Positions 1 to 24,400 of a stretch of DNA of 25,008 nucleotides are shown here, one piece after another. A model generated the notes under the pieces. It searched no databases. It saw only the letters and a list, made by a program, of their open reading frames with translations, and was not told the DNA's origin. A program made the translations under genes and the position numbers. Position 1 is the stretch's first letter; every line of letters begins with the position of its first letter. The stretch is from the NCBI GenBank assembly GCA_005223375.1, contig RXOD01004267.1:1-25008 (forward strand), read 5' to 3'. The DNA comes from Amoebophrya sp. AT5.2. Lineage: Eukaryota; Sar; Dinophyceae; Syndiniales; Amoebophryaceae.

Positions 1-669
1 GAAGCGGGGACGGAGGTGACCGAGGGAGGAGAGCTGCGGACTCGGCGAGGAGAGCTGCCGAGATCTCGGCGAGGTCGTTTCAACAAGCTGATCGCGCCCG
101 GGCCCGCCCAGCCGTTGTGCGACGACAACGCGTCCCGCGCTCCTCGTCCCGAAGACCAAGAAGAGCGTTCTTGCAGGAGCATCGCCGGCCAGCCTCAGTC
201 CCCGGGGTCAACTAGGGGGGGACAACTACAGGAGTCTGACCTCGTCGCTCAGGTTGAGGAGGACTACTCCCATTTGATAGGACATCAACTCCCGGGAGCT
301 GCAAGTAGAAGTGCGACCACAGCTGCAGCAGGTGCGAGTAGAAGAAGAGGCCGCGCGGCCACGAACAGGAGCCGGAACGCGGGGGCGGAATCGACCTCCA
401 CGGGGTTGCTGCCGTCCGCGCGGTCCTACCAAAGCGGGTGCTCCGCTGGATCCGCAGGCTCCGCAGGATGCCATTCGGGTGATTCGGGTGGTTCCATGGA
501 CTCCTCAGCGTCTACGTTCCGCGGGTGCCGACTGCCGCCACTGCCCAAAACGAGATCGCTGGCCATGCCGGAGCCGCTGTCGGGAGAAGCAGAGGACGGT
601 GCTGGGCTTGCCCCCGCTCCTGCCGCGAGTGGTCGGGGTCGTGCCAGCGCTACGGCGAATCCGAGTTAG
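1..669 (+). CDS. 3' end of unrecognised low-complexity protein (partial)
   Basis: One frame is open from the first base of the window to the TAG at 667-669, about 222 codons, so the start lies to the left of the window. Codons favour G or C at the third position, as in the clear exons nearby. The protein is rich in Ser, Gly, Ala and Arg, with Gly-Ser-Ala repeats around residues 140-165 and a short Pro/Leu stretch near residue 175. I see no domain, membrane segment or catalytic motif. It could be the disordered tail of a larger protein. An overlapping frame at 311-790 is also open but is extremely Arg-rich, as expected of a shadow frame. Coding status is likely but not proven, and the function is unknown. 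Confidence 0.45.
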   Translation, partial: EAGTEVTEGGELRTRRGELPRSRRGRFNKLIAPGPAQPLCDDNASRAPRPEDQEERSCRSIAGQPQSPGSTRGGQLQESDLVAQVEEDYSHLIGHQLPGAASRSATTAAAGASRRRGRAATNRSRNAGAESTSTGLLPSARSYQSGCSAGSAGSAGCHSGDSGGSMDSSASTFRGCRLPPLPKTRSLAMPEPLSGEAEDGAGLAPAPAASGRGRASATANPS

Positions 670-3366
670 GAGGCGGTCTCTGACGAGGGTTCCGCAAAGG
701 CTTGATCGATCGAGAAGATGTCGTGAGCATGTAGAGACTAGAAACCGGACTGTACTTCTTACAACTACTCCTGCAAGACACCGGCACTGACTTGCGACGC
801 CCTGATCTTCGACGAGGAAGGCTAGTACGCCTATACGACACTAACACTTGTTCTACGGGGGACTGGGACATCACGTGCGACAGACAGCCACTTGCAACAG
901 CTGTCGTCGCCCATCATTTTGCTAGGGTAGGTTCACTGGGGTGGCAGCCAAAACTGTTGTGTCTTTGTACGTAACTATGTTCTTGCTGATAACTCGCACA
1001 GCATAGGCCATAGGGCACAACCGTCACCCGATGGCGGCAATGTCTCAGCAGGTCAATCCACACCCACGGAACAGCCCAGCGGCAGGCGCATGACTTTGTC
1101 TGTCAGTGGTAGACATGTCGCAAGCGTTGCTCGTGTGGCACAGCACCTAGTATCGTTACGGCGGCAGCCAAAACTTAAGTATAGGTATGAATATGACAAG
1201 CGTCAAGCGGGCTTGTGGCGAGCCAAATATGCTTCTGTACTCCACCAAATATGTTTGTTGTACTTGCAGTCTGCAATGACAAGATACTAACGTCAACCGG
1301 CAAAAAAAAAAAAAACTTAGTAAGTCATTATCAAATAAATCAAAGCAAACTCAAGCATTTAGATTTAGGACGCCCCTCTGTTGGACTTACTTTCAAGGTG
1401 GCGGATCAACGGAGGAACGAGTCCGTCGCCCGCGAAGAGGCAGAAAAAAAATGCGCTTAGCATCGGAGATGGCCGCGCCCGCGAGGAGAAAAAATCTATT
1501 GGTATGGATGTTTTTTCGTGAAGAAGAATGTATAATGTAAAGCTATTTTTATCCGGGGAAATTTTATATCATTGAAATGTATGACCTTGCAATTGCAGCT
1601 AGTTTATCAGTACCTTCAAGAGTGCACTCGACATCGGACCACTTTGATGCATTGCCAGTTCGGCGGATTAAGTCACACCCATCTAAATCACACCCACCAT
1701 ATAGATTTAGTCCAGCGAACTAACCATCATTCCAACGGGAGTTTCAGTCCCTTGGACGGAAGTATTCTCATTCTAGCCGCGTTTTCTGCAGGTGATCTCT
1801 CATTCACTATCGTATTTATCCGGGGAAATTTTATTTCATTGAAATGTATGACTTTGTAGTTTATCAGTGCCTTCAAAAGTGCACGCTCGACATGGGACCA
1901 CTTTGATGCAGAGCCAGTTCGGCGGATTAAGTTTCAGTCCCATTGGACGGAAATATTTTCATTCTAACCGCGTTTTCTGCAGGTGACCTCTCATAATTGG
2001 ACGAAAACACGTCGAGGTCGAAACTAAGAATATGCTGTATTTGTGTTCTCTAGAGGAAGGAAGCCAGAGCAGCTGCATCTTGCGGTATTCGGTCCCTTGA
2101 CACACTTGATCTGCCGTCTTTTCAATTCGTCTCACTCGGTCTTTTTGTGTATATGTACTGCCTCCTGCCTCTGAGTTTTTCTTGGCATGTTTTCTCGTTC
2201 CGCAGACGGACTGCCTCTCCTTTCATTCTTGGTGTGTCCGGATGTTTATTTTTTTTTTGGCCAGTGAAATAATTCGCTGATCCCAAATTGAACTTTCCAG
2301 TAAGTACCCAAGGACCCCGATGGACTAGGAAGGTAGGACTCTAAACTTTAAGAAGTGCCTGATATCGCAAGCGGGAAGGGCATTATGCGTAGGATGTGCA
2401 GTGTGAAACTTGTGTCCTGATTGATAAACGAAATTATGTGAAGGCTGTACAGCATGATGGATAAGAGATGAGGTTGAACATCTCTGATGTCAAGCACAAC
2501 AAAGTGACCGACTCTGGTCTTCTTCGATCACTTTTTTCTACCGATGAGTTTGGCGCCCAGTATTTTGGGTCTTTTTTCTGAGTGCAGTGCCGCTTTCGAT
2601 CACATCACCGGTAGCCATAAGGTCATAGTACCATTACCACAGGCACGGTCCACTCCAGAGAACGACAATCACATTCGACAATCAGATTGACATTCACATA
2701 TGACTATGCCTACCGCTATTAGTTGTTGTAGGAGCCTCGTCAGATTGCAAGTGTAAAGTGCCTGTGATCAGCAAGAATCTGGCATTCATCGTTTGCCACA
2801 TAGCGATGGCTCATCTAGAAGCGAGCCGGGAGCCATAAAAAAAAATCTGGGTTGTTCCGCGGCTTCTATCGCGGAAACGAGTAGAGGCTGAGGGTGCCCC
2901 CAGTGAACACGCACACGGCTCTTCATCCAGAAGCCCATCCGGAATCACCTAAGAACGCACGTGGACCACGTCCACGGAATCTAATTGAAGACGTTTCTGA
3001 ATCTATTTGGGGAGAGAGGCATAAGATAACGACCATCTGGCATCGACCACACGACTTTGCCGCGCGTTGATTGATTCTTCGGCCATTTCCATTTTATACT
3101 GTAGATTGATAATAAATTCCGATTCATTGATTCTGATTCTTCGGTAGAAGGACCACCTAGTTGGGGCTCGTTATAATTAGAGGCCTACTGCCTAGTGGGC
3201 AGAATTCATTGTGTCCAGAGAATCGGAGGTCGGACTCGGAGGAGGACGCGGCCAGAGCAGGACACACGACGATCGAGGTTGCTGCTGGTCTCACAGCTGT
3301 CCGTTTTGAAAATATCGGCAGGACCACCACGCTTCCTCGTTCTTGTCGTTGTCCGCCTCCGCTCCG
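670..3366. other. Non-coding stretch between gene 1 and the four-enzyme locus
   Basis: About 2.7 kb with lower GC, many stops in all frames, short homopolymers (A-run near 1302-1315, T-run near 2249-2259) and no exon-like reading frame. It contains a diverged tandem duplication (1545-1994, listed separately) and a short motif GGCAGCCAAAACT near 943 and 1162. I found no tRNA, snRNA or recognisable promoter element. The promoter of the gene starting at 3367 presumably lies in the right part, but no TATA-like or initiator element stands out. Confidence 0.6.
1545..1994. repeat. Diverged tandem duplication, two copies of about 185-260 bp
   Basis: Copy 1 (about 1545-1803) and copy 2 (about 1810-1994) share the same order of blocks: a start around ATCCGGGGAAATTTTAT, then TTGAAATGTATGAC, a CTTCAA-AGTGCA block, GGACCACTTTGATGCA, GCCAGTTCGGCGGATTAAG, and an end around CGCGTTTTCTGCAGGTGA. 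Copy 1 has an extra segment of about 69 bp (about 1674-1742) that copy 2 lacks, and the copies differ at scattered bases. The duplication is therefore not recent, or one copy has since gained an insertion. The end block resembles a 3' splice site (TTTTCTGCAG|GT), but no open frame follows. Confidence 0.8.
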
Positions 3367-4580
3367 ATGATGGCGGAGATGAAAAGGGAAAACGAAAAGC
3401 TGCCGGCAGGGGAGGCCGAGGCCTCGTCCGAGCTCTTCCTGGGTATGATCAGCCTGCGGACCTGCCCCGAAAGACGCGCCTTCTTCGAGCGCGGATGGAA
3501 AGAACAAGCGCGTAGGAATATATGCTTTTATTTCCTTTTCCACTCTCATCTCAGCAAGTTCTATGCTATGCAACTCTTCCTTGTCACTTTTGCTTCATCG
3601 CACTCATGTGTTTTTTATATTTAAGTGGACCAGCACAAGCACTTGTTAAAGTTCCGCACCAAACACACGACCACGGATCGATGATCCTCCATTCTGACAC
3701 CGCAGGTAAATTCCTCCCGGCCACCGCATCCGAAGCGGAGAGGCAGGACCCGAGCTTCCTGGGGGCAAAGATGTATTACCACGTCGCCGACCTGGATCCA
3801 GAAGGCGGCGTCCTGGGCTGCACGCGCTCCCACATGGCCCTGTACCAGAAAGCAATAGACTCCACCAACGCAAAGGCGGCGATTGTTTTCGAAGACGACG
3901 TCAAGGTAGACGTATAGATAGGGGTCCAAGTGACGTTGATTAAACCCGGGCTTGACTGCAGCAGTATTTTTAGCCTTAGTTACTGCACGCCAACTGTTGA
4001 TCTTTTCTTTAGCGTAACGTTCGCGAGTTTCGGAGACCGCAGTTTCCCCCTCTGACGGACGGTCTCTTCTTTTTGTTTCGGTAGTCATCGATATAAAACT
4101 AATACAGGTAAACGGGCATTTCACGCCGTCGGTAATACGGGATTGCCTCGCGCTCATGGACACCTGGGACGTGGTTCGCTTTCACAAAACAGGGATCTGC
4201 AAAATTCACGGCTGCTTGTCCGACAATCTGTTCCACTCCTCGAACCTCTGCGGCCGCGCCTACATGATCTCCAGACCACTGATGGAGTACATTTATCCGG
4301 TTTGTTTCGGAGATTCGGAATAATTGTTTTTTTTTTTCTACACGTATTTTTTCAAGCGCACATCACGTGCGTGTGTACCAAACAACTTTGCTACCTTACA
4401 AAGCATTTTCATTTTGATTTTGAACCCGCCTTGCCCCTCGTCCAGGTACGTGCTGCGTTTCGACAGCAAGGAGGTGGTGCCCTATACGTACTTCTTGCCC
4501 AAGGCAAGCGCGCGACAGCTCACGTATCACCCGTCCTTGATTACGGAGGGAGCTTTTGGATCGTGGAACACAAAAGGCTT
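3367..4580 (+). other. Domain 1 of the fusion: GT25-family glycosyltransferase
   Basis: About residues 30-240 of the fusion. The order of motifs fits glycosyltransferase family 25 (LPS galactosyltransferase / procollagen galactosyltransferase-like): MISLRTCPERRAFFERGW near the N-terminus, GGVLGCTRSHMALYQKAI, then the acidic IVFEDDV motif expected for metal and nucleotide-sugar binding, then WDVVRFHK and CGRAYMISRPLME. Family members transfer a hexose from a nucleotide sugar to lipid-linked glycans or hydroxylysine. Donor and acceptor cannot be told here. There is no clear signal peptide, which is odd for an ER/Golgi enzyme. Introns: 3512-3633, 3906-4107 and 4287-4445. The family call is fairly secure, the substrate is not. 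Confidence 0.75.
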
Positions 4581-7500
4581 TGGCCGCGCCGCCGGCGCCA
4601 AGCAGGACGACGACACTTCCTGCTTGGCGCCGGCGGCGCCAAGCAGGACTTCTTCCTCCGCCAGCAGCGGCAGCAGCAGTTGTAGTTCGGTGAAAACGAC
4701 GACACCAAGTAGCGGCCCAGCCGCAAAAAAGCCGCGACCAGGGCCCGAGGTCGCGAAGCAAGACGCAGGTGGTTCCGCCGATAAGAAGTTTTCGGCGCTG
4801 GCGTTCCTGCAGTGGAGTTTGAAGTACACCACGGCGATCGAGCAGACGGTGGCGAACGTGCACTTCTTCACCAATCTGCCGTCGCCGCTGTTCAACGACA
4901 CGACGTTTCCCCGGGCCGAGACCTTCTGGTCCAAGTGCCGGGAGGAGCACGACGCGGGGAATCGGTTCAGCCGTGTGCAGACCTTCGCGGAGTATCGACA
5001 GAGGATCGGCAGATACGATAGCGCTGTGAAGGGGGTCTGTCCCCGGCGGCTGTCGGCGGAGGGGGTCCATTACTTCGGCTACGTGAAGAGTTTGCGGAGG
5101 CTGCTTTTCGGCGCCGAGACGGAGTACGCGGAAAGTAAGGACGTAACGGAGAAGTCCGTGCCGCGGGGGAACGACGACGACGCTGTAACGCACCTGCGAG
5201 CGGTGGAGCGACTGCAGCTCGCGAGACGCGAGGAACGAACGGGGCTGGGCTTTGGATACGAGATGGTCGCTGGGGCGGGGAGTTGCATGGCCGCGAAGCT
5301 CTTTCATCCAGGACCTCCGAGCAAGAGTGCTAGTTCCTGCGTCGAAATAGCCGCGCCGGTGAAACACGCACACCTCCAGCAGCCGACGACGGATTTTGAC
5401 GTTATCGTGGTGGGCGCGGGCATTGCGGGGAGCTCCTGCGCGTGGACGTTCGCGAACGCGGGGGCGAAGGTGTTGCTAGTCGAGCAATGGGACGTGCTGA
5501 ATGAGAACAAAAGGAAACTCTCCTCGCCGTCCTCGACGTCGTCGAATATCAAAACCGGAAAGGATCATCATAAGGACAACGACTACTTCGAGTCGATGGG
5601 GTCGAGTCGTGGCGGACCGCGGCGGATCGGGACTCTGGACCTTGCACCGGGCACGCGCGTGCGCGAAGCATGGACCGCGTGGTGCGACATGAAGGCCATG
5701 GCCGAGGAGTTGGCGGCTTCTTCATCATCAAGCAAGAAATCCGCTTCGGGTCCTCGTCCCCCGCCCCTGCTCGACGTGATCGGGGAAGTGCTGGTCGTGG
5801 ACATTTTTCCCTTTGGGTGGCTGCTGCTCGTTTTTTTTCTCATCTGGTGGCTGTGCCGGCGGATCTTCGCCGGCGCCGACTCGCTGCCGAGGGGACTGGA
5901 GCTGCTGTGGAACAGGGAACAACTGCTGTCGAAGTTGCCGAAAGACGCGTTCCGCTTCCGGTCCGCGAACGTGTTCGGGATCTACTACGCGGACGCCGCG
6001 GCGCTGTACACAAAGGAGATTCTGCAGCACTTCCACGCGGCCGCGGTTCCGGCGCGGCAGTTGGACGAGATGGTAGCATCTTCAAGTAGCAGTGAGGACC
6101 ACGACCAACGCTGTACAAGTAGCAGTGAGGCTCCTCCGAGCAGACCATCCTCAACGCAGACCCCGTCAGACTATTCGATTCTGGGCAAGACGAAGGTGGT
6201 GAACGTGCGGAGAGAGTCGAACGCGGCGGTGGTAGTAGACTGCGTGGAGAACCTAGCCGCGGCGTCCTTCGACGCGGGCAACGCGGGGAATGGAATGAGA
6301 GACGCGAAGCCGACGGCCCTGCGAGCGAAGCACGTCGTGATCGCTGGCGGGGGGTGGACGGGCGAACTCCTCAAAAAGATGGGCTTCGAAAACGCAAGGA
6401 CGAAGATTGGCGTCTTCACATGCCCGTCATACGACGTGAACGTGGTTGCAAAAGAGGGCAGAAGTAGTTGTACCCAAAAGCCGTCGCCGGCGAAGGGCGG
6501 CAAAAGGAAGGATGCAGTCGCGCCGCAGGTCGGAGTCGCGCCGCTGTCCGTGGAGAACAAGTGCCCGCTGTTCGCATTCCCCGCCGCAAGAATATACGGC
6601 TTCCCCATGGCGTGCGGGCACGACGGGCATCAGGTAGAGCGATTTACTTCTTTTGTAAAACTCAACAGTTCCACCCCCGGCCCAGCTGTCTCTGCCCTAC
6701 CTGAAGCACGTAAGTATCTATAAAAACCATCAGAAAAAAAAGAACTCTTTCACGATCCATCGATCCGCATCGATTTGGATGCCCGCAGGTAATGTCCATC
6801 CGCCCCAACTACCCGTCCACGTGGTGCCAGGACCCCGAGAACCACGCCAAGTTCGACGAACACTTGCACGTCGTCGACAGCTTCCTCACCGAGTACGTCA
6901 GACCCGACGCCCTCGTCCCCAGCGCAGCATCACCCAAGTCGCCGAACAAGACACTCCCACCAAGAAGACCCACCCCCACCGCGGCTTCCCCGAGCAGGAA
7001 ATCAGCACCCGGAAAGCCCCACCATCAACCCCTGAACCACGCGCCCCTGAATTCGTACACGTGCCGCTACCCGCAGCTCGCCGTGGACGGGAAGAAATTC
7101 GGCGCGGTGATGGATTTCGTCCCGGGATACGACAACCGCGTCGTGCTTGCCGCCGGTTTCGACGGCTACGGCTTTAAGTACGGCAGTTTGTACGGGAAGG
7201 AGGTGCTCGATTTGCTCGTCACGCACCGCCGGGTTTCCGGGCTGGAGTGGGAGAAGAAGCCGGCGGAGAACCTTCTGTTGAGGTGGCTGCACGCCATCAT
7301 CGACTTACTCCTGAAGGCCGCGGGCGGGGACGAGGGAGACGCAGACGAAGAGGCGACCAGCCGGTTCCCGCTGCACTTCGGGTTTGTCGTCCTCGCGGCT
7401 TGTTGGGCCTACCTCGCGGCGTCGAGCGTCCTCTTCGGCAGCACCCTCTCCGGCTTGTTCACGACGCTGTTTGTGCTGAACATCGCGTACACGCTCGGCT

Positions 7501-10500
7501 CGGAGTGGTTCTACCGAACGCCAAAAACCTTTTCCGACTGGCAGCGCGTGGGCGTAATATGGGGGGTGCACTATGCGTGGGCGCTCGGGGCGCCGGTGGC
7601 CGTTTCAGCGTTCGTGTCGCACCTGCTGTGCGCACCGCCCGATATCGGGGTTTCAGGCGGAGGTTCGGATACAGGTCTGCGGCAGGCGCCGGGCTTGCTG
7701 CTTTTTTCGTGTCTTCTAACGCTGGGCGGAATCTACCTCAGGTACCGCTCGATGGACGAGTGCGATCACTACGACCGCTCGGCGCGCGGGCTGCAATTAG
7801 GCGACGACGAATTCAAGCTCGGGGTAGACCAGAAGTGCGGAAAAGAACAGACGGGAAAGCGTGCTTCGTCCAGTAAAAACAAGAAGCCCGCGGCTCCGGG
7901 ATCTTCCGGAAAGAAGAAGACCGCACCGTCGTCCCCGAAGCTCCCGTCTTCTGAAGGACCCGAGGATGGGTCTCAGACGTCCTTCGCCCGGCAAGACCGC
8001 GTAGTCACGATGACCGGGATTTACTCGTACTGCCGGCACCCAGGCTTTGCCGCACACATTCTCCACGCCACCGCCGTCGCGATGGCAGTCGTCGTGTTCT
8101 TCCGAGTTTACGGCAGCGCCGGAACTACAACTACACCAGCGGCCGAAGGATCTACTTCGTCTTCACCAGCATTGTCCGAAACCGGTCTGCTAACCGCGGC
8201 GCGCGCGGTCTTCACGCAGGCTGCGGCGTTGCAGGAATTTCTGAGGGGACTCTTGTGGAGCGTGGTAATCCCCTTGGTTCATTTCCAAGTCGCGTACGTG
8301 ATTTTCGTCATGAGCGCGAATGCCGAGGAAAAGGAGTTCCTGGCGCAGGAGGACTTTCGCGAGGCGTACTTGCACTACCAGGTTGTCGTACCAACGCAGT
8401 TCAACTTCCTGACAAAGTTGCTGGAGCCAGTCGGCGAGGCGATTCGGGGAGTGCGCTGCGGCGGCAACAACGAGCGAAGGGTGTTTCTGCGGCTGCTGGG
8501 ACTGATTCAAGGGACGCCAGTGGACTTTCTGGATCCAGTCGAGGAACCGGAGCTTATCGAAAAGGTGCTCGAGGGAAGCAATAAAGGTACCGGCTACAAC
8601 AGTTTTCGTAGCTATCGAAAGCGAAACTAATACTTCCACCACAGCGCGAACGCAAATAGAAATACCCATGCGTCCTACTGGAATATACAAAATGCAGGTC
8701 ACTTTATCGAGGACCTGATTGCTTGTCCCGCGTGGCAGCCCGTCCGCTCCGTCGAATCGGTCCAGTATCACGAGGCCATGCGTATGAAGGAGTCTCTGAG
8801 CCACGTGTTCGCCCGGACCAGGGTCTTCGACCGCATCGACAGCATCATCGATGAGTGCGTCGCGCGCGATCCGTGTCTGAGCAGGAACAGCGCGCTCTCC
8901 AACATGGCGAAATCCAACTCCACCTGCACGACCGTGGACTGCAGCGACAGCGAGCGAAATCTCTCGATGAGCCAGCAGATATCGCTGGTGTCCACGGACT
9001 CCACGGACTCGCCCAGCATCGTGCCCTCAAGGGACCACAGCATAGTCGGGAGCCAGACGGGCAGCGACGACGGCGAGAAAATCGTGTCGGAGCCGGAAGA
9101 CGGTGGTGGCAATGGGAATAGCTGCTCGACGGGAAGCACAGCCGCGGGCTCGTCCGGGGAAGTAGGCGGGTTGACGCGGCAGGAATCCAGCGTGGGCGGC
9201 ACCGCCAGTACGTCCTCGTCGTCGCGTCCGAGGACGTCTTCCACCGGCCACGCCTTTTCGCCGCCGGCCAGGGGGAGTCGTGGGAGTGAGTGCAAGGGGG
9301 GCAGCGCGAGCTCGACCGCGTCGTCCCCGAAAAAAGGTGTGGCAGCACTACCGAAAAAAGGCATACCTGCGACCTCCGCTTCGGAAGACGGCGGCCCAAT
9401 CGCGGGCTGCGCGGACGTCACGAGGCACTCGTTCGAGATCTTCTTCAAGGTCCTCACGGACCGCTTTCCCACCGAAAGCGAGTCCAGGATGGCCCACGCG
9501 GCGGTCGACGAGTGGCGCAAGATGATCGCGATGAAGGGACAGGCTGATAGCGAGAAGAAGGTCGAGTTTGTCGACTTCATGAGGAGGTCGCTGAAGGAGT
9601 CTCCCTTCTTCCAATCGAACGCTCCTGCTCCTCGCGAAGAGTCAAATTATACAAATGCGAATGACCAAGACCACCACGCCGCGGACGAGCAGGAGGGTTC
9701 TACTTCCGTGGCCCCCCCCCCGAAGCAGGTGGTGAAGCGGACGACGTCGGAGAAGATGGCGGACGAGTACGTCTTCAATTGGGACGACATGAACTGCCTG
9801 TCGTGCGTGCTGCAGCCAATGATTATCTCGCCCATGATCAACTTCGCGGACGTGTTCACGAGCATGAAAACGATTCTGGATAGGCACCCCCACTGGCGAG
9901 AAGAAATCGTCGCGCCAACGAAGTTCTCGGAGGTACTGACTTTTTCACGGATTTAGTGTCCCGTGGGCTAGGTTTCACTGTCGCAGTTGTGTTGGTAGGT
10001 GTACTTTCGTTGTCTGGCAGCGAGACACTATCATTCAAATTAAATTTGGTGGCAAGAAGAAGAACTACTTACTCGCATGATTTACTTCTTTCGCTACCAG
10101 GTACTTAGAATCAGTATCAGTTCCGCCCATTCCAACATTTATTTCACCAAGCATCGGGCAACCCCCAAAGCACCAACAACGAACTCCAGACGCCCGCGGG
10201 CATTGTGCCTTCGCCCAACGTCGGGGCCCAGCTCGGGCTGAAAGAGCGCACCCGCTCCGAGGAGGTGGCGGATAAGGTGATCCTGGAGGGGATGCGGTGT
10301 GCCCACCCCTTCCCGATCCTCGAGCGGACGGTCACTCGGGACGTGGAGAGGAACGGCGAGACGCGCTTCAAGAAGGGCACCCAGGTGTTCATCGAGTACG
10401 ACCAATACTGCCAGGGCGAAAAGGAAAGCTCCTGCCCGTTTCTGAGCGGGAAGATGGAGGGTCCGGGCAGTGGGGGAGTGTCGTGCCCGTTCATGACCGG

Positions 10501-11066
10501 CCAGCAATCCGGAAAGACAGCGGGAACGTCGGACGAGAAGACGGCGACCGGTACGAGGAACTGTTTTCTGAGATTTCATTCTTATTCTTGGTGGGTAGTT
10601 TCCCTAGTGAATCCTCTTCAACGTCATCAGTTTAAGCGGTTTCTCTACCCCATACATAGATGTAAACAGAAGTGCGCACCTTAACTGTAGATTCAAGGGG
10701 AGGTTAGCACCAAGCCACAGAGTCGTCATATAGATGATAATGTTTTTCTTTTTTGCTCTCACACCAGCTTCGCCCCCCTCTGTGTTCGATCCCAACCGGT
10801 GGCACGACGAGCAAAAGTGCGTGTACCGCGCGGTGCCGTTCGGAAGTGGCGTCCGCCGTTGCTTCGGTCAGAAGGTCGCTCGCGTGATCCTGCGAAAGCT
10901 CTTGGTCGCGTACTGTAGGAATTGGGACCGGTTCGAGCCGAGCACGGGCCACGCCTTCTCCGGCAGGAACAACGACTCCGACCCGGGGGACACGTTCTAC
11001 GTCGCGAAAAACCTCGTACGCTGCCTCGCGGACGGAGTCAAATACCGTTTCGGACTCTCGATGTGA
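3367..11066 (+). CDS. Four-domain fusion: GT25 glycosyltransferase - FAD amine oxidase - ICMT-like methyltransferase - cytochrome P450
   Basis: Proposed exons: 3367-3511, 3634-3905, 4108-4286, 4446-6633, 6789-8586, 8698-9932, 10109-10550, 10768-11066. They sum to 6558 nt, exactly 2186 codons including the final TGA. Every proposed intron is GT-AG and phase-compatible. The glycosyltransferase end and the oxidase share one uninterrupted frame in exon 4. The oxidase end, the whole methyltransferase and the P450 start share exon 5. The only in-frame stop between methyltransferase and P450 (TAA at 8628) lies inside a 111-bp GT-AG intron. The start is the first ATG of the exon (ATG-ATG), about 30 codons before the glycosyltransferase motif. 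Linkers are Ser-rich and disordered-looking. The fusion is inferred from DNA. Separate transcripts from internal promoters, or trans-splicing, cannot be excluded. The least certain joints are 3512-3633 and 9933-10108. Confidence 0.7.
4586..4639. repeat. 22-bp perfect inverted repeat inside a coding exon
   Basis: Arms 4586-4607 and 4618-4639 are exact reverse complements around a 10-base spacer. The arms contain CGCCGGCGCCAAGCAGGA and its complement. The inner 14 bases, GGCGCCAAGCAGGA, occur a third time as a direct copy at 4635-4648. The repeat lies in the Ser/Ala-rich linker just after the glycosyltransferase domain and is translated in two different frames, so it was not conserved for its protein sequence. 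It would form a very stable hairpin in the mRNA. Confidence 0.9.
5392..7215 (+). other. Domain 2 of the fusion: sarcosine / N-methyl-amino-acid oxidase-like flavoenzyme (DAO fold)
   Basis: About residues 515-1070. A Rossmann FAD motif opens it: DVIVVGAGIAGSSCAW, with GxGxxG at residues 522-527. Further along are VFGIYYADAAALYTKEIL, HVVIAGGGWTGELLKKMG and CPLFAFP..IYGFPMACG, in the order seen in monomeric sarcosine oxidase and N-methyltryptophan oxidase. The C-terminal part has a Cys (residue 1020, codon 7062-7064) in C-R-Y context, then VVLAAGFDGYGFKYG. In sarcosine oxidases the Cys of C-x-Y carries FAD covalently and the GFSGHGFKF motif lines the active site. Expected reaction: oxidation of an N-methyl or secondary amine to imine plus hydrogen peroxide. 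Ser-rich and hydrophobic insertions interrupt the domain. Intron 6634-6788 lies within it. Confidence 0.75.
5800..5875 (+). other. Hydrophobic, membrane-like insertion inside the oxidase domain
   Basis: Residues about 652-675 read IFPFGWLLLVFFLIWWLC followed by RR, a strong membrane-segment profile with a basic flank. It falls between the first and second conserved blocks of the flavin domain, where soluble sarcosine oxidases have no membrane span. The DNA is pyrimidine-rich (T-run at about 5830-5837), so a cryptic or non-canonical intron is possible, but no GT-AG pair that keeps the frame was found. It may instead be an amphipathic or monotopic membrane anchor. Confidence 0.45.
7290..8415 (+). 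other. Domain 3 of the fusion: ICMT/PEMT-type membrane methyltransferase
   Basis: About residues 1100-1470. Several hydrophobic spans follow one another (for example around FPLHFGFVVLAACWAYLA, LFTTLFVLNIAYTLG, VGVIWGVHYAWALG, GLLLFSCLLTLGG). They lead to TGIYSYCRHPGFAAHIL, with the RHPG motif near residue 1344, and EEKEFL near residues 1441-1446 followed by FREAYLHYQ. RHPxY/F and a later EE pair are the S-adenosylmethionine-site signatures of isoprenylcysteine carboxyl methyltransferases and phospholipid N-methyltransferases. A Lys/Ser-rich loop of about 60 residues sits before the RHPG motif. Sterol reductases share an RHP-like motif but end differently. The methyl acceptor is unknown. Confidence 0.65.
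8440..11066 (+). other. Domain 4 of the fusion: cytochrome P450
   Basis: About residues 1490-2185. The N-terminal beta region GTPVDFLDP..PELIEKVLEG lies in the same exon as the methyltransferase. Then YHEAMRMKESLSHVFARTRV, a Ser/Gly-rich insertion (about residues 1590-1760), INFADVFTSMKTILDRHPHW (I-helix end and J-helix), the K-helix ExxR as EGMR (residues 1999-2002), the FDPNRW meander, and the haem loop VPFGSGVRRCFGQ with the ligand Cys at residue 2118 (codon 10860-10862). All hallmark P450 elements are present. The I-helix oxygen-activation motif is degenerate (FADVFT instead of AGxDT). Introns at 8587-8697, 9933-10108 and 10551-10767. Expected role: haem monooxygenase needing a reductase partner. 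Substrate unknown. Confidence 0.85.
8587..8697 (+). other. 111-bp intron containing the only stop between methyltransferase and P450
   Basis: The donor reads AAAG|GTACCGG and the acceptor TGCAG|GTCACTT. Both junctions carry AGGT, and both sides are phase 1. Splicing joins ..LEGSNK-G-HFIEDLIACPAW.., which reads smoothly into the P450 block. The unspliced frame would stop at the TAA at 8628-8630. Other GT-AG pairs tried here did not keep the frame. Confidence 0.65.
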
Positions 11067-16600: not shown

Positions 16601-18655
16601 GCGCGGAAATTTGCATTGTCCGCAGCTGTGATGTGTGCTTCAGTATCAATGTATAGTATCTCTGTACCTTCTCCTTCTGCGCAACAAGTAATTTTATTAA
16701 ACCTTCTATTCCCTGCTCACGTCACAGGTCGGGCGACTGCCACAAGTTGATTTCGATCCTGGACGAGAGCACGCACGAGGTCCGCGAATTCAAGTTCCAC
16801 AACGTGTTTCAGCAACAATCGACTCAGGAGGAAATCTTCCACAACATCGGGGAGCCCTGCTTCCAGTCGTGGGCCTACAACCGAATTTCCACCTGCCTGT
16901 TTGCACACGGGCAAACGAGTACCGGGAAAACGTACTCCATCATCGGGGACAAAAACACAAAGCATGCAGGTGAGCTTTCTTTGAACATTTGAAAGGCTTG
17001 CCTCTGCAACTGGTGTAGTGACTGGCGCAACTACTCTACAACATAAACACGGAACATCTTCTTCGCACTGATTCGCAAACGCAATCGCTACATCCACCCC
17101 GCCCCTCGGACCAGGTCTGTTGCCCCGTATTTTGTGGCGGTTCTTCGAGTCTTTCCCCGCGCTTAGCGTGAGCGTTGTCGAGATCTACCGCGAGCAAATC
17201 TACGATTTGCTCAACAAGCGTCAGCCGGTGAAGTGCTACAACAGCTCGACGCAGACGATCAAACGATCGGTGACGAAAGTGCCGTGCGACTGCTACAAAG
17301 CAGCCCTCAAAGCCGTCGAAAAAGGCAATCGACTGCGGGTTGAGGTACTTCATTTGCAGCTGGTTCTTTGTCGTTTTCGAATTACCGATAGTATAATACC
17401 GACGTTACAGCTTGCTATTTATCTTCATGTGCATATGGTAATCCTGTATCGCTAACGGTGACCACACCGACATCGGCACATCAACATTCTCCCCTCTCCC
17501 CGATCTCTGCAGGCACGGACGGTGTTGAACAGTGTATCCTCTCGTGGGCATCTGATCATCCTTCTTGAGTACCGCGGCGAGACTCTGTGCGTCGTGGACC
17601 TCGCCGGCAAAGAGACCGAGGCCGGTATTTCGTCTCTCCGCGAGGTTCTGGAGGAGACCGCGCGGAGAAGGTCGCTTCGCGGCATTCGGGACAACGCCTC
17701 CGCTTCCGACCTCGGGCAGCAGCACCAGCAGCATCAGTTGAGCCGCTCGGAGAGCAACGATCTGGCTCTCGCCGGTGTGGAATCCAGGTCGAGGTTCGGG
17801 AATCTTCATCACGACGGCTTGTCGCGCAGTTCCCCGCATATCGTTGCCGGAGCTCTGCGGGGGCGCTCGCCCCGGATACGGCACTTTCACAATGATTCAC
17901 GAGCCGCTAGCCCCAAGAACCGCGGCGGTCAGTCGCAGTTTCACGGTTCGAACGGAAGCGCCTCCCATGAGCTGACAGGGCAGCTGCTCCGCCGTTCGGC
18001 ATCCGCGGCGCGGGGCACCCTCCCCATAAGCCGAAAACGCTCCCGGACAACCATGATGGGAAGGAGTTCTTGTGGTCCCACGAGTGCGGCCGACAGCAAG
18101 ATTCGGATGCTCGAGCTGAAGTTCATCAACAAGTCGCTTTTCCACCTCAGCGAAGTGATTCAGAACCTGCGGAAGGACTCGAAGGTCGTGTGCTACCGGA
18201 ATTCGAAGCTGACGTACTTGCTTCAGGACTGGCTGTCCTCCAAGCAGGTTTACTTGCTCGCCACGATCTCCCCCTCCGAGCTGTGCTTCGAGGAGTCGCT
18301 CGCAACGCTGCGATTTGCGGACGCGGTAGCAAATCTGCCGAAGCTGCGCGAGACTCCGACGAGGGACGAAAGAGGGCCAACCTGGAGTGGAGCTGGAGCG
18401 GCGGGGGGATCCGGGTGGGAGGAGGCAGATTTGGGGGGAGTGGGGGGACCGTCGGTCTCGCCCGAAGATCGGTGTCCGATCACGCTGGCGCCGCGACTGA
18501 CGCCAGCGTCGAGGCGGAAGGAAGGGGCGGAAAGCAGCTTTTTCGGGCTGCGAGAAGAGGCAGGTAGTCAGGGAGCAGAGAACTGCCCGTTCTGGTCGTC
18601 TTCGAAAAAAACGATCGAGCGGGTAGGACAAAACGCGCTGCTCCTGCCGTCGTAA
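13638..18655 (+). CDS. Divergent kinesin with C-terminal motor domain
   Basis: Exons 13638-16507, 16728-16969, 17115-17344 and 17513-18655, all GT-AG and in phase, give 1494 residues ending at TAA 18653-18655. Residues 1-915 are Ser/Ala/Gly/Pro-rich with no evident coiled coil. The motor follows: VYCRIRPQ (926-933), P-loop GQTSTGKT (1018-1025), VVEIYREQIYDLL, switch I NSVSSRGH (1120-1127), switch II DLAGKE (1143-1148), FINKSL (about 1318-1323), then YRNSKLTYLLQDWL and ESLATLRFADAVANL. Canonical residues are altered (SSRGH for SSRSH, DLAGKE for DLAGSE, S for G in the P-loop). About 150 extra residues separate switch II from NKSL, where kinesins normally have about 20. C-terminal placement recalls kinesin-14, but no neck coil is visible, so the subfamily is open. 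Confidence 0.88.
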
Positions 18656-21488: not shown

Positions 21489-24400
21489 ATGCCGAATCCG
21501 CCGCCGGTGCCGAAGAAGCAGACGGTCCTGCTGAATGCAGAGCAGCCGCGCAGTTCCGGCTTCGACGCCGTGTTCAAAGCCCCTTCCCAACTGGGCGCTG
21601 CCTACCAGACGCACCTCGATGAGGTGGCCGGCGGGAAGAAGACCGGGAATCTGCAGATCTCCAAGCTGGACGCTGACAAGTACATGAAAGCCTATGCGGA
21701 GGCCGAGAAACCACCAAAAGAAGGGGTGATACGGAAGCAGGTATAAGTACTTCGTTCTGGAATCTTCCTACTTTCTTAAGTCGAACATTCATCTTCAGCA
21801 GCTTCATTTTATTCTTTCGTCTGGTACGGCGGCGGCGCAGTAGACGCACTGCTACAGTTTTTACAGACAGAATAGAAGTAGAAGCGCAGCATGATCGGTT
21901 ACGGTAACGGTTTCGGTGAACTTTTCGGTGCCCCCGTCCCAAACGCACAGGAGCTGATCGGCGACCTTGCGCGCATGCAACGGCACCAAGTTCAGGCGGA
22001 TCCGGAGAAGGACATTGACGCGCGCAAGGAGAAGCGGGAGGCCTTCCTGGAGAGCCGCAAGCAGCGGCACGACGCCGCGGTCCTGGAAGCTGAGGCCGAG
22101 ATCGACAAACTGCACGACTCTTGCACCGAGAAGCTGCAGGGCTTTTCAAAATCCATGAAAACCTACCTGCGGGAGCGGGACGAGGAGGCGGAAACGATTC
22201 TGCACCCGCTGGAAAAAGACACGGAAAAGCTGGGGGAGAAAAGCGAGGAGTGGGTGCAGTCGCTGCTCACAAAATTGGAGGACGGTAAATCATTTATACT
22301 TATGTATCAAGGCCTAAGTTAGTGCAGTACGAGTTCGAGTTGTAGTTGTACGTTTCCAACGAATTATTTCACTAGGATGTTTCGGTGTCCGTCTCCATGA
22401 CGCGTATGATAGATGTAAAGGTTCAAAAGGGGTTTAAATTTAATGAATGGACTCGGGGTCGTGGTGCAGGTATCGCCCAGCGCGGTGCTCGGATCGCAGA
22501 GTTTCACGAGCAGCTGCAGGAGCTGGAGAAGTTTCGCAAGCGGCAGGGTTTGGATCGGTTGACGCACATGGTGAATCTCTGCACCGCGGCGGCCCACGCC
22601 TCGCCCGGCGAGGTCGAGCGCATCGCGGACTCCAAGTCCGACGCTGTGAACAACCTCACGCTGCAAAACTGCCAGAAGGCGACCGAGGTGTTCACGAGGC
22701 TGAAGGAGCAAAACATGGAGAACTCCAAGGTCCACCGGCGGCGATGGTACGAGGGTCTGTTGCTGTGGAAGAAGAAGCGGCACCAGAACGCGGTGGAAAC
22801 GGTGCTGCGGCGGATCGAGAGCCGGGAGTTCCGGGGCTGTCCCGAACTGGTGAGTTTGTTGCAGCGAATACGGGTGCAACAGAGAGACGTGTTCTCCCAG
22901 AGAAAGGAACTGCTGGTCCAGGTTTTCACGACGGAAATCGACCTGCTGAACAGCAACAAATTGCGGGGCATCGAAGAACAGATCACGGCAATCAATGACC
23001 GCACGAGCGAAGAAACAGACAACTTCCTGGTGGAGCTCAAGGAACTGAAAGACACCCTGCAGTACAAAAGCGAAGGGATGCTGAACCAACTGCGCACGGA
23101 GCTGGAGATGTAGTAGACGAGTGACTCGCTTTTAACATACTAGTACTTATGGCTATGTGTACTAGCTGTAGCTGTAGCCCCGCCCGCGGCACTTTCTACT
23201 AACAGCAGCTCCATTGTGATTCGTGAACCGATGGAGCGTTGATCGGAATCGGAATCGGAAGGGATCGCCACGGCATCCCTAGGCACAAAAATATCACGTC
23301 TAAAACAAATCAAGGTTCGACGCCCGCACGGAGTGGGGTGACCACGAGTCGATAAAGGCGCTTGTCGACGCGGACATCAAGCCGCACATGGAAAACTGCC
23401 TGAACTGGATCGAGAACCTCTGTCTCGAGCTCGCCAACGTGATGCAGACGTTGGACGAGTGGGCCCACCACACGGCGTCCAACTTGAACACCTTCGCGAT
23501 CAAGATCGCCACGCTGCTCGAGACGTTTAAGCAGCAGCTGAACGAGCTGAAGGTTAAACACCAGGGCGAGATCGACGACTGCGTCGAGGACCACGACAAC
23601 GAAAAGAAGAGGAACGAACTCGAGATGGTGGACTTCCACGAAAAAATGGAGGACGAGGTGCACATCGAAGGCCTGGACTTAAGGGGAGGAAGAAGCTCTT
23701 TTCCTTGGGCATTGGTCTGGTGGTGGTGGGAGACTGGGCGCTCCTCTCGTAGCTGGTCCCGTTTGATGTGGGCAGTGTTGTCTTGTATTTCGTCTGCTAT
23801 TTTTTTGTCCTGCTATTTTCTCCGGCTATTTTGTCCTGCTATTTTGTCCTGTATTTGGTCCTCTCGCATTGTGTTCCTCGACAATCGAGCAGAACGAGCC
23901 ATCCGATGGCCATCGGCCATAAACAAGTGCCGCCAAAATAAAGGGGTTCTTTTTCACTCGCCTGTAATGGAGGTGCTGCTGCAGCAGACCTTCGACAAGC
24001 TGGATGTGATCGCGCAGTCGTACCGGGACTTCGCGAAGAATCTGCTGGACATCCACAAGTCGTACGAGCCGAAAATCCACGAATTCTTCCGGGCGCAGTG
24101 CGACCAGTTCATGCCGCACTTCGCTCTTGAACGTAAGCTGGAGGAGGACGAGCTGGAGGAGGACGAGGACGAGGAATAGGCAAGGAGCCAGCGATGGTAC
24201 TTAAGTGAGTGAGTGATGTAATTGTAAGCTAGGTAGGCAAGAATGGGGCCGCCTAGCGATGGCGAGTGACCTGCGCGATGGCGAGTGGTTTGATGCAGGC
24301 GCTCTGAAGATTCATAGTACACGGCACGAGTTTCTCAGAGCTGCCGCATTCGATGGGGAGTAGGGGATAGATGAGAGTGGGGGTTAGGGCGGGGGGTACG

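Follow-up and report, generated by a model that had tools for sequence, protein, structure and literature searches.

A single Amoebophrya gene joins glycosyltransferase-, flavoenzyme-, methyltransferase- and cytochrome P450-like domains in one reading frame

The 25,008-nucleotide stretch of DNA analysed here, hereafter the window, comes from Amoebophrya sp. AT5.2 (contig RXOD01004267.1, positions 1 to 25,008 of the forward strand). It contains a single gene that encodes a GT25-like glycosyltransferase, a DAO flavoenzyme resembling monomeric sarcosine oxidase (MSOX), an ICMT-like methyltransferase and a cytochrome P450, joined in one reading frame. A sequence-only reading had proposed one gene, one frame and four enzymes in eight exons, and this proposal is borne out by the identity of the translation to a transcriptome peptide, P0001. 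The gene has the following features.

3370..11066, forward strand: whole coding region of eight exons and 2133 amino acids, with P0001 as its translation; a further in-frame ATG lies at 3367
3370..3511, forward strand: exon 1, start of GT25, from the splice model matching P0001
3433..4590, forward strand: GT25-like glycosyltransferase domain, aa about 22-222, split by introns 1-3; PF01755 matches aa 26-121 and the remainder is taken from the alignment
3706..3905, forward strand: exon 2, which holds the GT25 core and its motifs GCTRSH and FEDD; the frame 3639-3917 matches PF01755 at E 1e-07
4108..4286, forward strand: exon 3, GT25 (HKTG ... CGRAYMIS), from the splice model and alignment
4446..6633, forward strand: exon 4, GT25 C-terminus, conserved extension and N-terminal part of DAO (PF01266), with the first fusion point
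4786..4899, forward strand: extension following GT25, aa about 288-325, conserved and shared with P0009
5392..7229, forward strand: DAO domain resembling monomeric sarcosine oxidase, aa about 490-1050, split by intron 4 (1zov E 2.2e-11; soxA_mon; Foldseek)
5788..5844, forward strand: hydrophobic helix inserted in DAO, aa 622-640, Kyte-Doolittle hydropathy 2.61
6789..8586, forward strand: exon 5, DAO C-terminus, methyltransferase and N-terminal block of the P450, with the second fusion point
7353..8417, forward strand: ICMT-like membrane methyltransferase, aa about 1092-1446, with RHP at aa 1319-1321, EE at aa 1416-1417 and five hydrophobic segments (ICMT match and alignment)
8424..11063, forward strand: cytochrome P450 domain, aa about 1449-2133, in exons 5-8, its N-terminal limit set by family conservation
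8587..8697, forward strand: intron 5, in phase, 111 nt, with one in-frame stop between methyltransferase and P450 (splice model)
8698-9932, 10190-10550 and 10768-11066 (stop included), forward strand: exons 6, 7 and 8, from the splice model matching P0001
9813..9842, forward strand: P450 I-helix block QPMIISPMIN, without A/G-G-x-D/E-T (alignment and motif check)
10286..10297, forward strand: P450 ExxR motif, EGMR (alignment and motif check)
10839..10868, forward strand: P450 haem motif FGSGVRRCFG, with the codon of the ligand Cys at 10860-10862 (alignment and motif check)

The spliced translation is identical residue for residue to P0001 over 2133 aa, a match that spans all seven introns. The header of P0001 names MMETSP0795 and taxid 88552, which is Amoebophrya sp. 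(Syndiniales); MMETSP peptides derive from RNA and are assembled from short reads. All seven introns are of the GT...AG type, and retention of any one of them adds one to four in-frame stops. The exon edges previously placed at 4446, 6633, 8586 and 8698 are correct in this splice model. The length given with them, 2186 codons, was wrong, as the frame, counted from the ATG at 3370, comes to 2133 codons (2134 from 3367). An earlier splice model with microexons at 4357-4370 and 6686-6709 and with exon 7 starting at 10109 was ruled out by the P0001 match. The first and second fusion points each lie inside an uninterrupted exon, as had been claimed. GT25 and DAO are joined within exon 4, where 729 open codons compare with a mean of 171 and a maximum of 351 in 200 dinucleotide shuffles, and the join of DAO to the methyltransferase lies within exon 5, where 599 open codons compare with a mean of 181 and a maximum of 313 (200 dinucleotide shuffles). 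As both open frames extend beyond the shuffle maxima and P0001 matches in full, the frame is not a product of chance. The third join had been described as an in-phase intron that removes the sole stop, and intron 5 fits this description. P0001 spans all three joins, which speaks against separate mRNAs. That one gene encodes the four domains in one reading frame is thereby confirmed.

The domain order is also found in relatives. Our homologue searches recovered 3 proteins from 7987 scored candidates, 3 from 7981 (P0003 not recovered) and 14 from 7994; the candidates were capped in number and had exact words in common, and these searches therefore do not establish that other dinoflagellates lack the fusion. 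The full order GT25-DAO-methyltransferase-P450 is present within one record in P0001 and in P0002, a protein of 2667 aa that is 28% identical to the query across 74% of its length. P0005 (1762 residues) starts in the GT25 C-terminus and continues through DAO, methyltransferase and P450, with only the GT25 start missing, and P0003 (1769 residues) has GT25, methyltransferase and P450 without DAO. The methyltransferase is followed by the P450 in all five records with a full methyltransferase domain (P0001, P0002, P0003, P0005 and P0007). Among P0001, P0002 and P0003 the identity by domain is 43-55% for GT25, 24-32% for the methyltransferase and 26-37% for the P450, and the DAO domains of P0001 and P0002 are 43% identical. 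In the alignment the order is kept over this long divergence and the linkers vary freely. P0002 has an extra C-terminal part (aa about 2050-2667) with several hydrophobic segments and, by eye, His-rich stretches resembling the pattern of fatty-acid hydroxylases. No Pfam match was obtained there, and the extra part hints at a lipid substrate.

Further records cover parts of the protein. P0008 is a GT25-DAO fragment, P0014 a P450 fragment, and P0009, P0010 and P0011 are GT25 pieces, of which P0009 has its own hydrophobic tail and looks stand-alone. P0012 and P0013 are DAO records on contigs of just 1542 and 1724 bases; they have a common start and end and thus appear to be stand-alone. These stand-alone-looking DAO and GT25 proteins suggest that the steps may be linked. 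P0004 is a paralogue on contig C359 (L020, reverse strand, about 590-3980) that comprises GT25 and DAO and ends in the methyltransferase part; P0004 itself is a public gene model. It is 56-57% identical, with the similarity ending near aa 1139, early in the methyltransferase part; its GT25 part lacks introns 1-3, an intron after GHQ is at the same place, and EDD is changed to EDG. A second methyltransferase core or a second P450 was not found in the assembly examined (50.7 Mb in 2759 contigs, possibly incomplete).

The GT25 domain of P0001 matches PF01755 with 37.3 bits against a cut-off of 24 (E 3.4e-09). Its FEDD acidic motif at aa 109-112 is kept in seven of the eight records covering the stretch, the exception being the C359 paralogue. 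The nearest solved chain is 9crz, 'Putative glycosyltransferase R655' (E 5e-4), a mimivirus protein; the best E for procollagen galactosyltransferase against the window domain was 0.54, which is not significant. A GCxxSH and EDD core is common to the window domain and known GT25 glycosyltransferases (9crz, procollagen galactosyltransferase 1). However, unlike these, the window domain is fused to three other enzymes and has an extra extension past the core, and its match to 9crz is weak. An inverted repeat occupies 4587-4648 in the low-complexity linker after GT25; its 31 bases at 4618-4648 were considered as a mobile element and rejected, as the assembly holds no second copy at up to 3 mismatches. 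A second fused gene, with GT25 (E 2.8e-11) and a JmjC hydroxylase (E 8.2e-11) in one 876-codon frame, is present on contig C678 (L022:2283-4913).

The DAO domain matches PF01266 with 45.9 bits against a cut-off of 27.9 and contains the FAD-binding GxGxxG. The NCBIfam profile soxA_mon gave 53.5 bits, far under its curated cut-off of 479.65, and in a Foldseek search the predicted model of the paralogue P0004 resembled 7exs (E 1.9e-16). The Cys of TC(R/H)Y aligns with the Cys of MSOX (CMY) that binds FAD covalently and is kept in all seven records with that part of DAO, making it a candidate FAD attachment site. In passages of PMC6222107, MSOX-type enzymes with FAD on cysteine oxidise C-N bonds of N-methyl amines, and FsqB, which belongs to the MSOX type and uses an N-methyl amine in a biosynthetic pathway, provides a precedent for the proposed role of DAO here. 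The FAD fold and the aligned Cys are common to the window domain and to MSOX, N-methyltryptophan oxidase, NikD and FsqB. In contrast to these flavoenzymes, the window domain sits inside a megaenzyme, appears to have no conserved lysine for O2 activation and carries an inserted hydrophobic helix, and a hydrophobic segment is also found at the matching place in P0002, P0004, P0005, P0006, P0012 and P0013. Scanning with the DAO alignment gave 21 pattern stretches in prokaryotes and 44 in viruses, none of them confirmed as a relative.

The methyltransferase domain shares with the ICMT (PF04140) and PEMT superfamily the pattern GxYxxxRHPxF ... EE ... Y..Y in a hydrophobic domain. ICMT was matched in all five aligned members at E up to 1, and RHP and EE are kept in all five records, within the membrane domain. 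The window domain differs from ICMT in a long variable insert and in a match under the Pfam cut-off. A separate, clear ICMT gene is present in the genome on contig C1213 (E 5.4e-19).

The P450 domain of P0001 matches PF00067 with 47.4 bits against a cut-off of 22.8. It has the ExxR and FxxGxRxCxG motifs of the family and matches P450s by sequence and model; ExxR and FGxGxRRCxG are kept in all six P450 records. Unlike a typical P450, it lacks A/G-G-x-D/E-T in the I-helix block and has no fused reductase. Outside that block the pattern A/G-G-x-D/E-T was hit in two records, at aa 1751 of P0002, where ExxR follows 15 residues later, and at aa 1315 of P0003, and in no other. Counting back from the following HP, present in four of six records, Ile-Asn falls by eye at the place of the Asp-Thr of P450cam; the HMMER alignment is shifted there. 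Among NCBIfam profiles the RiPP P450 ApyO matches all six members (best E 2.2e-10). CYP102 (BM3) is likewise a P450 within a larger polypeptide, whereas the window P450 is joined to other biosynthetic enzymes and not to its own reductase. It is the sole P450 match in the assembly, whether all six frames are searched with Pfam or the last exon is used as the query at E <=10. Contig C1154 carries a diflavin reductase-like gene, which combines a flavodoxin domain with FAD and NAD domains and may be the redox partner, so the P450 could be reduced in the ordinary way. A viral scan with the P450 gave 44 pattern stretches and no confirmed relatives.

Elsewhere in the window, kinesin motor pieces lie at 17120-18655 (PF00225, E 1.5e-06, below the cut-off, and 6.5e-23). 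Three frames at 21891-24179 cover successive portions of DUF4455 (PF14643), with a best E of 1.5e-24, and are probably exons of one gene.

The gene encodes an expressed, conserved fusion of four enzyme-like domains, and in our view the chances are about even that it works as a membrane-bound multienzyme in which the intermediates of a single tailoring pathway are retained, with a hydrophobic amine-bearing molecule, for example a lipid or a long-chain base, as its likely substrate. The domain identities and their order, as first proposed, are upheld by profile matches, alignments and relatives. Since the catalytic motifs of the four domains survive large divergence, all four are probably active, and since distant relatives have the same order, the protein is probably a small assembly line. 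We infer that the domains would share one substrate, and infer its class and the order of the steps likewise. The MSOX-type flavin domain would oxidise a C-N bond, the ICMT-like domain would methylate, the P450 would carry out an oxidation and the GT25 domain would add a sugar, with attachment to the membrane through one hydrophobic helix in DAO and several in the methyltransferase. A lipid-like substrate is proposed because of the protein's hydrophobic segments and of what P0002 carries at its C-terminus, an amine because of the DAO family alone. That the protein is a megaenzyme which tailors a lipid or an amino-acid-derived product, as proposed earlier, is a reasonable interpretation and a partly supported one; a tailoring multienzyme of some kind is likely.

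Several observations weigh against this reading. Although genome and relatives agree with P0001, a chimera arising in short-read assembly is not strictly excluded. GT25, DAO and P450 match their own families at low identity. The absence of DAO from P0003 means that the four enzymes need not form one strict line. The activities named in the sequence-only reading also stand in part. For N-demethylating oxidation, an assignment from the sarcosine-oxidase family, that family stands, but seven records have no conserved Lys after YGFP at the place of MSOX Lys265, in a region of ambiguous alignment; Lys265 is important in MSOX according to passages of PMC5459902, and its apparently missing counterpart means that DAO may hand electrons to an acceptor other than O2. 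Methylation is supported by the RHP/EE pattern, but PF04140 on the window protein gave 16.7, 14.4 and 17.6 bits, all under the Pfam cut-off of 24, and the methyltransferase profile gave four PDB matches, none significant (4a2n, ICMT, E 1.1). Haem oxidation is supported by ExxR and the haem motif, but the I-helix block reads QPxxISPxIN in place of A/G-G-x-D/E-T in all six records, so ordinary monooxygenation is not to be assumed. The AlphaFold models are of low confidence and serve as support only, mean pLDDT being 43.1 for P0007, from 6 aligned rows, and 51.6 for P0004, from 11; for that of P0007, Foldseek gave 65 matches, none with E <0.001, and among the 50 listed 49 were named P450 and one fatty acid decarboxylase.

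Could neighbouring genes have been wrongly joined by annotation or assembly, with separate mRNAs in the cell? Passages of PMC7789003 describe Amoebophrya genes in co-oriented blocks and trans-spliced transcripts, and fusion artefacts are reported for genomes of helminths (PMC12964723). In Amoebophrya sp. A25 the relative is annotated as two products, a further point against a single gene: P0006, named 'partial', with GT25 and the DAO start, and P0007, with the DAO end, methyltransferase and P450 (longest contig 272,899 for both). However, P0006 aligns to aa 709 and P0007 from aa 819 of P0001, so the break falls within the DAO domain and not between domains, which points to the two as the probable halves of one gene split by annotation. 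Orthologues are therefore not consistently separate genes, A25 being the case of opposite sign; the joins are otherwise kept in one polypeptide in relatives at about 30% identity. Two of the three joins lie inside exons and the transcriptome peptide crosses all three, and the artefact is largely refuted and highly improbable. Loss of function in part of the protein, with some domains serving as scaffold or membrane anchor and only one or two reactions being carried out, would be in line with the unusual I-helix, the sub-threshold methyltransferase, the lack of DAO in P0003, and the C359 paralogue, in which EDD is replaced by EDG and the methyltransferase is cut short. We consider it unlikely, as none of the four domains has lost its catalytic motifs between relatives whose identity by domain is only 24-55%.

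It is also possible that the enzymes are independent and share a polypeptide for common expression or a common place, such as one membrane, and not for a common substrate. The stand-alone-looking single-domain relatives and the form without DAO fit such an arrangement; an order kept over long divergence between freely variable linkers does not, and we think it rather doubtful. MSOX-family oxidases produce H2O2, and peroxide made by DAO might supply the neighbouring P450, which would then act as a peroxygenase and make the protein comparable, in nature, to self-sufficient P450s. In CYP152 peroxygenases the acid-alcohol pair is absent and the I-helix has Arg-Pro (passages of PMC6167049); the window P450 shares the missing pair, in all six records, and a weak NCBIfam CYP152 match in three of six members (best E 0.0023), but Arg-Pro is absent from the I-helix block of its family. 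Moreover CYP152 is not the best profile, ApyO being better, P0003 keeps the P450 without DAO, DAO appears to have no conserved lysine at the Lys265 place, and there is a diflavin reductase-like gene on C1154, all of which make a peroxygenase improbable.

The sequence-only reading knew of no described protein with the GT25-DAO-methyltransferase-P450 order, and no description was found among the titles and abstract openings listed by searches aimed at it (10 of 74 and 15 of 9610 papers), which covered part of the literature, while a query for four of five domain terms gave no paper; a search for MMETSP0795 gave none either. In the available text of PMC12005148 and PMC7789003 the words 'P450' and 'fusion' each occur 0 times. 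In PMC11453091, 'P450' occurs 5 times, 'fusion' 4 and 'fused' 2, and none of these 11 passages concerns this protein.

Returning to the fused tailoring pathway, enzymes joined in one protein are often partners in their function, and the gene therefore points to a pathway in Syndiniales, with four of its steps named together. Syndiniales are marine parasites whose metabolism is poorly known. The gene carries the sole P450 found in the assembly, with an unusual active-site helix. A bolder version, in which the protein is a self-contained assembly line anchored in the membrane, makes a lipid or amine metabolite new to alveolates, and has a P450 that works without ordinary O2 activation, taking oxidant or electrons from the flavin domain, seems to us a long shot; if true, one gene would define a whole new pathway.

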